Assembly (NCBI GenBank): GCA_027488215.1
Contig: JAIYCB010000031.1
Span: 62,001 to 126,000, forward strand
Source of the DNA: Comamonadaceae bacterium
GTDB taxonomy: Bacteria > Pseudomonadota > Gammaproteobacteria > Burkholderiales > Burkholderiaceae_C
DNA length: 64,000 nucleotides
Reading direction: 5' to 3'
The notes beneath the pieces are model-generated. The model did not search any database. It was not told the DNA's origin and worked only from the letters and a program-made list of their open reading frames with translations. Made by a program: the position numbers and the translations under genes. Shown here one piece after another: positions 11,600 through 55,159 of the stretch (position 1 is the first letter of the stretch; each line of letters starts with the position of its first letter).

Positions 11600-11610
11600 G
11601 GGTTCTGTCC

Positions 11611-11678
11611 GGATTGCAGCGCTTCGATCGGAATGACAGGTCAAAAGCGCGTCATGGCGAGCGCAGCGAAGCCATCCG
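11611..11678. repeat. Inverted pair of dispersed REP-like repeats (folA-thyA spacer)
   Basis: ggattgcagcgcttcgatcggaatgac (minus copy) followed by gtcatggcgagcgcagcgaagccatccg (plus copy); same family as in purL and at 55036-55102. Confidence 0.75.
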
Positions 11679-30799: not shown

Positions 30800-33700
30800 G
30801 TGTCCCTGCACATCACGACTTTCGAAGGCGCCAGCGCCCTCAGCGACTTTCGCATTGCCCAAGTTTTGCCACGTCTGGCAGAGATTTCGCCGCAAATTGT
30901 GGGCATCGCTGCCCGTTTTGTGCACCTGGTGGCCACAGTCGCGCCTTTGGCGGATGCCCAAAAACAAACCCTCTCGGCTTTGTTGACCTACGGCGAGCCT
31001 TATGCCGGTCCCATTGATGGCCCCGTGATCGTGGTCAGCCCGCGCATCGGCACTGTGTCGCCCTGGGCCTCCAAGGCCACCGACATTGCCCACAACTGCG
31101 GTTTTGAGGTGCGCCGGGTGGAGCGCCTGACAGAATACCGCCTAGTGATGAAGTCGGGTCTGCTGGGCACCGCCAAGCTGAGCGCCGAGCAACTGGGCCA
31201 GGTGGCCGCGGTGCTACATGACCGCATGACCGAGTCGGCCATGCCAAGCCGCGATGAAGCCTCTGCCTTGTTCACTGCACTCGACCCCGCGCCCATGGAG
31301 CATGTGGATGTGCTGGGCGGGGGCCGCGCGGCGCTTGAAACCGCCAACAAAGCCTGGGGCCTGGCCTTGGCCGAAGACGAGATCGAGTATTTGGTCAATG
31401 CCTTCAATGGCCTAAAACGCAACCCCACCGATGTGGAGTTGATGATGTTCGCGCAGGCCAACAGCGAGCACTGCCGCCACAAGATTTTCAACGCCGAGTT
31501 CACCATCGACGGCGTGACCCAGCCCAAGAGCCTGTTCGGCATGATCCGCAACACGCACCAGCTGAGCCCCCAGCACACCGTGGTGGCGTATTCGGACAAC
31601 GCTTCGGTAATGGAAGGCCACACGGTGGAGCGTTTTGTCGCCAGAGCTTCAGTGCAGGGCGCGGCCTATCACAGCGAACAAGCCTTGCACCATGTGCTGA
31701 TGAAGGTGGAAACCCACAACCACCCAACCGCGATTTCGCCTTTCCCTGGCGCATCCACCGGCGCAGGCGGGGAGATCCGCGACGAGGGTGCCACTGGTCG
31801 CGGCTCCAAGCCCAAGGCGGGTTTGTCGGGCTTCACCGTGTCCAAGCTTTGGGGCGGAATGTCCGACCAAGTGGGCGGCAAGCCCGAGCACATCGCCAGC
31901 CCCTTGCAAATCATGACCGAAGGCCCCCTGGGTGGCGCGGCGTTCAACAACGAGTTTGGTCGTCCCAATTTACTGGGCTATTTCCGCGAATACGAACAGA
32001 CCGTGGACGGCGTGGTGCGTGGCTACCACAAGCCCATCATGATCGCGGGCGGTCTGGGTCAGATTGACGCCGAGCAAACCAAAAAGATCGAATTCCCAGC
32101 GGGCAGCTTGCTGATCCAGTTGGGTGGCCCCGGCATGCGCATCGGCATGGGCGGCAGCGCGGCCAGCTCCATGGCCACCGGCACCAACGCGGCCGATCTG
32201 GACTTTGATTCGGTGCAGCGCGGCAACCCCGAGATCGAGCGCCGTGCGCAAGAGGTCATTAACCATTGCTGGGCGCAGGGCGCGACTAACCCCATCTTGG
32301 CCATCCACGATGTGGGCGCGGGCGGTTTGTCCAACGCCTTCCCTGAATTGACCAACGACGCAGGCCGGGGCGCACGATTTGATTTGCGTGCCGTCAAGCT
32401 CGAAGAGTCGGGCTTGGCCCCCAAAGAAATCTGGTCCAACGAGAGCCAGGAACGCTACGTGATGGCGATCGCGCCCGAATCACTGGAGCAGTTCACCGCC
32501 TTTTGCGAGCGCGAGCGCTGCCCGTTTGCGGTGATTGGCGTGGCGACCGAAGAGCGTCATTTGGTCTTGGCCGATGAGCGGCTGCCCATCGATTCCGCTT
32601 TGCGTGGGCCTACGGGGCTAACGGAGACTGGATCGCCACGCTCCGCTCGCGATGACAACCATTCCGTCATTGCGAGCGCCAGTTACGTCATTGCGAGCGA
32701 AGCGCGGCAATCCACCCCCGTCATTGCGAGCGAAGCGCGGCAATCCAGTTTGATGCCCGTGGACATGCCCATGGACGTGCTGCTGGGCAAACCGCCCAAG
32801 ATGCACCGTGACGTGAGGACCGTGGTCCGCCAGTCGCCTGCCATGAACCTGACCGGCGTGTCCTTGCAACAAGCCATCATCGATGTGCTGAGCCACCCCA
32901 CCGTGGCGTCCAAGCGCTTTTTGATCACCATTGGCGACCGCGCTGTCGGGGGTTTGACGCACCGCGACCAAATGGTGGGCCCGTGGCAAGTGCCCGTGGC
33001 CGATGTGGCCGTGACCCTCGCCGACTATGCAGGCTTTGCCGGTGAAGCCATGAGCATGGGCGAGCGCACGCCGCTGGCCTCCCTCAACGCCGCAGCCTCA
33101 GGCCGCATGGCCGTGGCCGAGGCCATCACCAATTTGCTGGCCGCACCCATCGAGCTGCCCCGCGTCAAGATGTCCGCCAACTGGATGGCCGCTTGCGGCG
33201 AGCCGGGCGAAGACGCCGCTTTGTACGAGACCGTCAAGGCCGTGGGCATGGAGTTGTGCCCGGCGCTCGACATCTCGATTCCTGTGGGCAAAGACAGTTT
33301 GTCGATGCGCACGCAGTGGCAAGCTGATGGCCAGACCCATAAAGTCACCTCACCTGTCAGTCTGATCATCACCGCCTTTGCCAGCTTGCCCGACGTGCGC
33401 GGCACGCTGACCCCGCAGCTGGACGCGCAAACCGATGACACCAGTTTGCTGCTGATCGACCTGGGCCAAGGCCGCAACCGCATGGGCGGCAGCGTGCTGG
33501 GCCAGGTGCAGGGCCAGTTTGGCGACAGCGTGCCCGATCTGGAAGACCCGCAAAGCTTGGTCAGCGTGGTCAATGCCGTGAACGCCTTGCGCGCCAAGGG
33601 CCAAATCCTGGCTTACCACGACCGCAGCGACGGCGGCTTGCTGGCCGCGGTGGCCGAGATGGCGTTTGCAGGCCATGTGGGTGTGGCGCTCAATGTGGAC

Positions 33701-34951
33701 ATGCTGGTCACCGAAGGCGACGGCATTTCTGACAGCCGCGCCGACCACGGCGACGCCAAGAACTGGGCAGGCCAAGTCAGTGCCCGCCGCGAAGAACTCA
33801 CCCTCAAAGCCCTGTTTAACGAAGAACTGGGTGTGGTGCTCCAAGTGCGCACCGCTGAGCGCAACGCGGTGCTGCAAAACCTGCGCGAGCACGGCTTGTC
33901 CAAACACACCCATGTGATCGGCAAGACCCGGCCTGTGCAATCGACCATCCAAAAAGGCGTGGGCGAACTGAGCATCTGGCGCGACACCAAAGAGGTGTTT
34001 ACCGCCAAGCTCGAAGACCTGCACCAAGTGTGGGACAGCGTGAGCTGGAAAATTTGCCAGCAGCGCGACAACCCCGCTTGTGCCGACGCCGAACACGCCG
34101 CCGCAGGCCAGGCCAGCGACCCCGGCATGCATGTGGCGCTGAGCTTTGACCCGGCCAAAAACGTGGCCGCGCCTTTCCTGAATCTGTCGCGCCCCAAGGT
34201 GGCGATCTTGCGCGAGCAGGGCGTCAACTCGCATGTGGAAATGGCCTACGCCTTCCACAAAGCGGGCTTCGAGTCGCACGATGTGCACATGACCGATTTG
34301 CAGTCTGGCCGCGCCAATTTGGCCGACTTCCAGGGCTTGGTGGCTTGTGGCGGCTTCAGCTACGGCGACACTTTGGGTGCAGGCATCGGCTGGGCACGCA
34401 GCATCACCTTCAACCCGTCGCTGTCGGACCAGTTCAAAGGCTTCTTTGGCCGCACCGACACCTTTGGTCTGGGCGTGTGCAATGGCTGCCAGATGTTTGC
34501 CGAACTCGCCGACATCATCCTGGGTGCGCAAGATTGGCCCCGTTTCACCACCAACCAAAGCGAGCGCTTTGAAGCACGCTTGTCGATGGTCGAGGTGTTG
34601 GAATCGCCCAGCTTGTTTTTGCAAGGCATGGCGGGCAGCCGCTTGCCGATTGCGGTGGCGCACGGCGAGGGCTTTGCCAATTTCAAACACCGTGGCAATG
34701 CAGCTCAGGCCATTGCGGCCATGCGATTTGTTGACAACCACGGCCAGGCGACTGAGCAGTACCCGTTTAACCCCAACGGCAGCGCGGGCGGCCTCACGGC
34801 TGTTACGACCGCCGACGGGCGTTTCACGGCCATGATGCCGCACCCCGAGCGCGTGTTCCGCAATGTGCAGATGAGCTGGACGAGTGGCGACATCTCATCC
34901 ACCAGCCCGTGGTTGCGCGTGTGGCAAAACGCCCGCAAGTGGGTGGGTTGA
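30800..34951 (+). CDS. purL: Phosphoribosylformylglycinamidine synthase (with in-frame repeat insertion)
   Basis: 1383 aa from GTG 30800; [54 protein letters not shown], GATase [15 protein letters not shown] and [14 protein letters not shown]. Confidence 0.97.
32628..32747. repeat. Dispersed REP-like palindromic repeat cluster inside purL
   Basis: Minus copy ctggatcgccacgctccgctcgcgatgac (32628-32656); truncated plus copy gtcattgcgagcgcc (from 32666); two identical plus copies gtcattgcgagcgaagcgcggcaatcca at 32687-32714 and 32720-32747. Confidence 0.9.
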
Positions 34952-40490: not shown

Positions 40491-40574
40491 GCCCTGAAGC
40501 GGCGGGCATTGGCCGGGGCTCAGAGGCGCTTCGCTTTGCCACATCGCCCCGGCCAATGCCCGCCGCTTCAGGGC
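40491..40574. repeat. Perfect 29-bp inverted repeat, 26-nt spacer
   Basis: gccctgaagcggcgggcattggccggggc (40491-40519) and its exact reverse complement gccccggccaatgcccgccgcttcagggc (40546-40574). Confidence 0.93.
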
Positions 40575-54943: not shown

Positions 54944-55035
54944 TCACGAAGCACATTGGCGGTCACTTGGGTGGCTGATGTATTTCAGGGCAAGTGGCAC
55001 CATGCTACTTGCCCAATTTTTTGCCTGAACCGCAT

Positions 55036-55102
55036 GGATCGCCGCGCTTCGCTCGCGATGACATAAAGAACACTGTCTCTGCGAGCGTAGCGTGGCAGTC
55101 CA
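55036..55102. repeat. Inverted pair of dispersed REP-like repeats (fadA - acyl-CoA dehydrogenase spacer)
   Basis: ggatcgccgcgcttcgctcgcgatgac (55036-55062, minus copy) and gtctctgcgagcgtagcgtggcagtcca (55075-55102, plus copy). Confidence 0.8.
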
Positions 55103-55159
55103 TGTCTTCACTGTGAGCGATGTGTGGCAGTTCATTAAGCACCCGGAGAGTAACGACCT

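Follow-up and report, generated by a model that had tools for sequence, protein, structure and literature searches.

Why does an essential enzyme of purine synthesis carry palindromic repeats in its reading frame, and why at one particular point of the chain? The question is posed by purL (phosphoribosylformylglycinamidine synthase; 30800..34951, plus strand, 1383 aa), located in the 64,000-nucleotide stretch of DNA analysed here (hereafter the window), from what is probably a Limnohabitans-type freshwater bacterium (genome G000). The frame stays open across the insert (1408 aa from stop to stop), and the Pfam domains are as expected: FGAR-AT_N, linker, AIRS_C, FGAR-AT_PurM_N-like and GATase_5. 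The insert follows AIRS_C (residues 434-590) and precedes the second PurM-like half (704-861). PDB 1t3t aligns with PurL on both sides of it, so that it falls between 1t3t residues 599 and 604. With respect to congeners devoid of insert, the added region spans 32579..32755 (plus strand), a net gain of about 55 aa between query residues 593 and 652. Exposure of the linker at the protein surface is argued from the domain boundaries only; the AlphaFold model of PurL residues 221-1130 (37 congeners) had a mean pLDDT of 29.

The added region opens with a non-REP leader of about 17 codons (32579..32628, plus strand), common to G000 and three congeners (G028, G029 and G083), for which a source was searched and none found. 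It is followed by a REP unit in inverted orientation (32629..32657, minus strand), read in frame as GSPRSARDD and forming the first arm of a head-to-head pair, by a truncated unit GTCATTGCGAGCG (approximately 32666..32678, plus strand) read as VIAS, and by a 29 nt unit with a CGTC head and a CCA tail (32686..32714, plus strand) read as VIASEARQS. A second, identical unit is found 33 nt downstream (32719..32747, plus strand). These peptides and coordinates agree with the first-pass annotation of this DNA, which had reported REP-like palindromes in frame inside purL with two identical copies at a frame-keeping 33-nt period; each copy measures 29 nt. Judged by its sequence, the insert is thus a cluster of CGTC-type REP palindromes in the interdomain linker between the two PurM-like halves.

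The repeat is dispersed. Our genome-wide statements on REPs come from pattern searches and selected stretches of the genome: with up to 3 mismatches allowed, the unit pattern gave 118 matches, of which 36 were exact, while the reversed-pattern control gave 0. Within the window, the two intergenic spacers already pointed out in the first-pass annotation hold two units (11610..11678, between thyA-like and folA-like genes) and three units (55035..55134, between a thiolase gene and an acyl-CoA dehydrogenase gene). The claim that a dispersed palindromic repeat serves as a linker in the PurL reading frame is thus borne out, with 118 genome copies and an open frame; from the sequence we infer that these REPs are selfish and translated. 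The window also carries, at 40491-40574, a perfect 29-bp inverted repeat with a 26-nt spacer, between U32-peptidase-like and peptidyl-prolyl isomerase-like genes, both on the minus strand.

To which class does the element belong? CGTC REPs (families CGTC-1 to CGTC-4; Di Nocera 2013, PMC3733652) have a CGTC end, an AT-starting stem of 8-9 bp, a loop of 4-5 nt and an unpaired CCA tail. Head-to-head dimers predominate, no transposase is found alongside, some copies are in frame in several species, and uvrA is a recurrent target (PMC3733652). The window element resembles them in its CGTC end (CGTCATTGCGAGCG at 32686 and 32719), AT-first stem, CCA tail, lack of a transposase alongside and in-frame uvrA copies; its predicted 8-bp stem is broken by an internal loop and its hairpin loop is of 3 nt. 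Inverted-then-direct units occur in the PurL inserts of G000, G028, G029 and G083 and in the HrpA, YgiQ and dehydratase-like copies described below. Y1 transposase genes were present in 20 of the 20 genomes tested, and at the seven loci checked no REP was located within about 1.5 kb of them, which matches the lack of a dedicated transposase in the CGTC class. Accordingly, a transposase-linked origin of these REPs was set aside. The RAYT-type transposase gene of the window genome likewise has no REP beside it; together with the CGTC and CCA ends of the element, this speaks against an assignment to GTAG REPs of the RAYT REPtron type. Filled and empty purL sites compared by eye displayed no clear target-site duplication, a MITE trait, and the insert holds the non-repeat leader. 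As in Rickettsia palindromic elements (RPE), a dispersed palindrome lies in frame and orthologues have empty sites; this was observed directly for purL and, for the other genes, by Pfam context only. The likeness to RPEs proposed in the first-pass annotation is close, CGTC-1 and CGTC-4 having been equated with RPE-6 and RPE-4, respectively (PMC3733652). Taken together, the sequence features of the element fit the CGTC class of REPs.

PurL is not the only host of in-frame copies. At least six other conserved genes of the window genome carry them: HrpA (L130/L008) at two sites, one between the HA2 and OB domains and one inside DUF3418; YgiQ (L128) inside Radical_SAM_N; AceF (L141) between the second lipoyl and the E3-binding domain; UvrA (L142) in two clusters; a dTDP-glucose dehydratase-like protein (L024); and an alpha/beta hydrolase (L143). 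Pfam domains flank or enclose most of these clusters. All nine clusters, PurL included, are read in one codon phase (VIASEARQS for direct units, GSPRFARDD or RFVPRDD for inverted ones), although the unit is open in five of its six frames. If an in-phase head-to-head pair can use two phases, the probability of finding nine of nine in a single phase is about 0.002, and this suggests that the peptide is under selection. Long antisense ORFs through the REPs at L012, L016 and L025 had no Pfam match and were dropped as shadow ORFs.

We then consider the same site in relatives. In the genus survey, purL matched over the insert region in 85 of 90 genomes, and most congeners have the short linker LVLEDKGQESPVDMPMD at the insert position. 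The segment is thus a true insertion: relatives do not carry it as ordinary sequence, and the repeat does occur elsewhere in the genome. Besides the window genome, G028, G029 and G083 have REP inserts at the same point with differing unit numbers, all in frame and free of stops; the insert of G083 is the simplest form, with one clean head-to-head pair. An in-frame TGA was seen in purL of another congener (G018:C4:96195-97646), likely a frameshift or sequencing error.

Other congeners have unrelated repeats in the same linker. Six (G026, G048, G055, G061, G065 and G070) carry a hairpin built of GCGTTGA/GCGTTCA heptamers, read as VQRSAFSVERED...AQRSTPNAQR; inserts of this type are also found in isolates. 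The CCCCCTCGGGGGGCAGCG element (also CCCCCTCGGGGGGCAGCGAACCACACGAAGTGGGGAGCGTGGGGG, CCCCCTCGGGG) occupies the linker in three congeners, namely G072, G074 and, as a degraded copy, G082, and also in some ten genomes from other genera (loci L162, L163, L165, L192, L195 and L239-L241); its CCCCCTCGGGGGGCAGCGAACCACACGAAGTGGGGAGCGTGGGGG form is read as PSGGSEPHEVGSVG. A GCCCTGAGCTTGTCGAAGGGC palindrome, read as SVRPELVEG...STSSART, is present in G251, G309 and G219, with a remnant in G203 (loci L148, L154 and L229; remnant L186). Finally, a CCCTCTCCC...GGGAGAGGG hairpin is present in G479 and G255, with a remnant in G110 (loci L155 and L157; remnant L152). Named carriers include Limnohabitans sp. 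2KL-1 and Limnohabitans sp. T6-5, as well as MAGs of Hydrogenophaga, Comamonas and Ottowia. In a set of 40 genomes from other genera, chosen regardless of frame length, about 6 had a recognisable repeat in the PurL linker and 2 more had long unclassified linkers. Two related genomes, G339 (L158) and G151 (L204), have in common a long linker LPSRADGGLGARSAGTGMD... that was matched to no dispersed repeat.

Only a few codons separate the positions at which the different families lie. Every insert read, in more than 20 species, keeps the frame and contains no stop. The linker gains range from about 12 to 86 aa of unrelated sequence. Full-length REP, heptamer, palindrome and hairpin inserts fold more stably than shuffled sequences (z approximately -2 to -7); remnants were not more stable than shuffles, and inserts of the CCCCCTCGGGG element fold no better than shuffles. 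The latter element occurs in PurL in the same frame and context in many genera. It is also in frame in a DHH-family, RecJ-like gene of the window genome (L208, C7:33300-33900) and of G007 (L209), in glycine dehydrogenase (L213), in an M20 peptidase (L211) and, in opposite orientation, in a CobQ-like gene (L212); most of the near-exact CCCCCTCGGGGGGCAGCGAACCACACGAAGTGGGGAGCGTGGGGG copies viewed were intragenic. In all, at least five unrelated dispersed repeats occupy the PurL linker in different species of one bacterial family. The site would thus be a multi-family hot spot across related genera, which goes beyond what the first-pass annotation had envisaged.

Outside the family the picture is different. 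In 92 of 103 other families, each represented by one genome, the linker differs from the uninserted reference by only -1 to +2 aa, and no single match gained more than +14 aa, the highest value seen. The longer linkers L223, L224 and L227 were read and contained no such repeat; Luteimonas sp. RC10 (L321) has a hairpin-like peptide in the linker and may be an exception. As the linker is near-constant outside the family, the hot spot is concentrated in the family, perhaps not exclusively. The plasmid records searched gave no match.

In the PurL tree, insert types are scattered and most deep branches are weak; the window genome has G072 as its neighbour (support 98/83), and the repeat of G072 is a different one. 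This patchy distribution fits repeated insertion, one old insertion followed by many losses, or old recombination. The ambiguity is greatest for the CCCCCTCGGGG element, given its constant frame and context across many genera, its low abundance in its carriers and inserts that fold no better than shuffles. Since the tree is weak at depth and the types are scattered, we claim no count of independent gains within one repeat type. Recent exchange of the insert between species was considered and is not supported, because the sliding identity of the flanks was no higher in insert-sharing pairs than in other pairs; an older exchange may have taken place. The firm part is the entry of unrelated repeat families into this linker.

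Does the type of insert reflect the repeats abundant in each genome? The four REP carriers have 87, 105, 74 and 43 REP copies (up to 2 mismatches), and only 4 other congeners (G026, G064, G004 and G061) exceed 30. The heptamer pattern gave 98, 67, 62, 40, 34 and 6 matches in its six carriers, overlapping tandem matches included, and none in most other genomes. For the GCCC (GCCCTGAGCTTGTCGAAGGGC) palindrome, 114, 78, 39 and 28 matches were counted in genomes with that linker type, the assignment of G199 being based on a decayed peptide, against 0-9 in 20 others tested. The CCCTCTCCC hairpin reached 53, 32 and 22 copies in its carriers, and 45 in the non-carrier G094. The CCCCCTCGGGG element is not abundant, with at most a few near-exact copies per genome. 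Fisher tests of insert type against abundance gave p values of 3e-5, 5e-7, 9e-5 and 2e-3, which are descriptive only: thresholds were chosen afterwards, the genomes for the GCCC palindrome and the CCCTCTCCC hairpin were hand-picked, and the values are too small because the genomes are related. The repeat in the linker mostly matches one that is abundant in that genome.

How would these observations be explained? REP palindromes would have entered the PurL interdomain linker, probably as a head-to-head pair, and the cluster would then have been altered by gain, loss and decay of units. More generally, repeats would land across the genome, and selection would remove those insertions that break frames, stop translation or strike folded parts. 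The PurL linker would recur as a site because it tolerates almost any hydrophilic peptide, the insert then being translated as a flexible, mostly neutral linker. We hold such a neutral spread of repeats, filtered by selection and meeting in this linker a site of unusual tolerance, to be highly probable. The linker joins two enzyme halves and varies freely in length here, which fits the two-step filter.

The arrival of different families within a few codons of one point of purL could instead reflect site-directed insertion, the linker DNA near GTCGACATGCCCATGGACGTG being a preferred target for a machinery that moves several palindromic repeats. However, the repeats found in other genes lie in unrelated sequence contexts, conservation of the coding DNA downstream of the purL site extends to genera that lack inserts, and the absence of REPs within about 1.5 kb of the transposase genes at the seven loci examined also argues against it; we consider this unlikely. 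Just as unlikely in our estimation is an adaptive role, in which longer charged linkers would be selected for domain motion, ammonia channelling or regulation and repeats would merely supply the raw material. Lengthening does recur in one bacterial family while 103 others are near-constant, and the inserts use mostly polar frames; yet close relatives have none, the gains of about 12 to 86 aa are of unrelated sequences, and no peptide is conserved beyond the repeats themselves.

Since most inserts form strong RNA hairpins, ribosomes might also bypass them, or the hairpins might be spliced out, so that they would be absent from the protein. Bypassing would require neither an intact frame nor the absence of stops; both were seen in more than 20 species, and because the frame is kept in every case read, we judge this very improbable. 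Least probable of all, to the point of being negligible, is an assembly or binning artefact. The assembly of the window genome is fragmented into 53 contigs, and repeats do cause misassembly; against this, separate genomes have related inserts at that very point, among them the near-complete G028 and G083 and isolates (heptamer type). The artefact envisaged as an alternative in the first-pass annotation is thus unlikely, because three further species, in separate assemblies, have REP inserts at this point.

Several known systems share parts of this picture. In-frame intragenic CGTC copies are published, therefore in-frame repeats as such are known. The CGTC survey, however, places these REPs mostly in alpha-proteobacteria, and neither purL nor Burkholderiales is mentioned in its main text; the site it reports as shared is recB alone, where REPs lie at about the same position in two Xanthomonas species (PMC3733652), rather than a site used by several unrelated families across genera. 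Rickettsia RPE-1, RPE-4 and RPE-6 (Ogata 2000, 2002, via PMC2229807 and PMC3733652) are likewise palindromes in frame in conserved protein genes, and a Rickettsia gmk with an RPE is described there as translated and active (Abergel 2006, cited in PMC2229807). RPE hosts are obligate intracellular bacteria, whereas here a freshwater Limnohabitans-type bacterium belongs to a group with several unrelated repeats in one linker. Enterobacterial RU/ERIC and Yersinia MITE-like repeats (PMC2229807, PMC2759123) are also small mobile repeats read in frame with genes, but are longer (about 100-170 bp), differ in sequence and have no such shared landing site described. No relevant paper came up in literature searches for the REP DNA core, for the peptide core VIASEA or for purL combined with palindromic insertions. 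Nor did the papers searched describe one linker that several unrelated repeat families share, the nearest case being Xanthomonas recB. What appears to be new is thus the occurrence of several unrelated repeat families at one PurL linker, and not in-frame REPs, which were already known.

REPs owe their name to an extragenic position, and the best-known examples of in-frame palindromes that code for protein come from Rickettsia; here such palindromes are seen in several core genes of a freshwater group. For annotators and structural biologists this is a warning that stretches such as GGSEPHEVGS can come from translated repeat DNA instead of being conserved domains. The PurL linker allows a direct test of neutral filtering versus targeting of repeats that become protein, and constitutes a natural experiment on how much foreign peptide an essential multidomain enzyme tolerates. 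We lean, with some reserve, towards a broader proposal: one interdomain linker of an essential, conserved enzyme may serve unrelated palindromic repeats as a general landing site, at which they turn into protein independently of one another, either as the most permissive site in the family's proteome or because it is actively targeted. If this is true, the PurL linker would be a natural recorder of the repeats active in each lineage.
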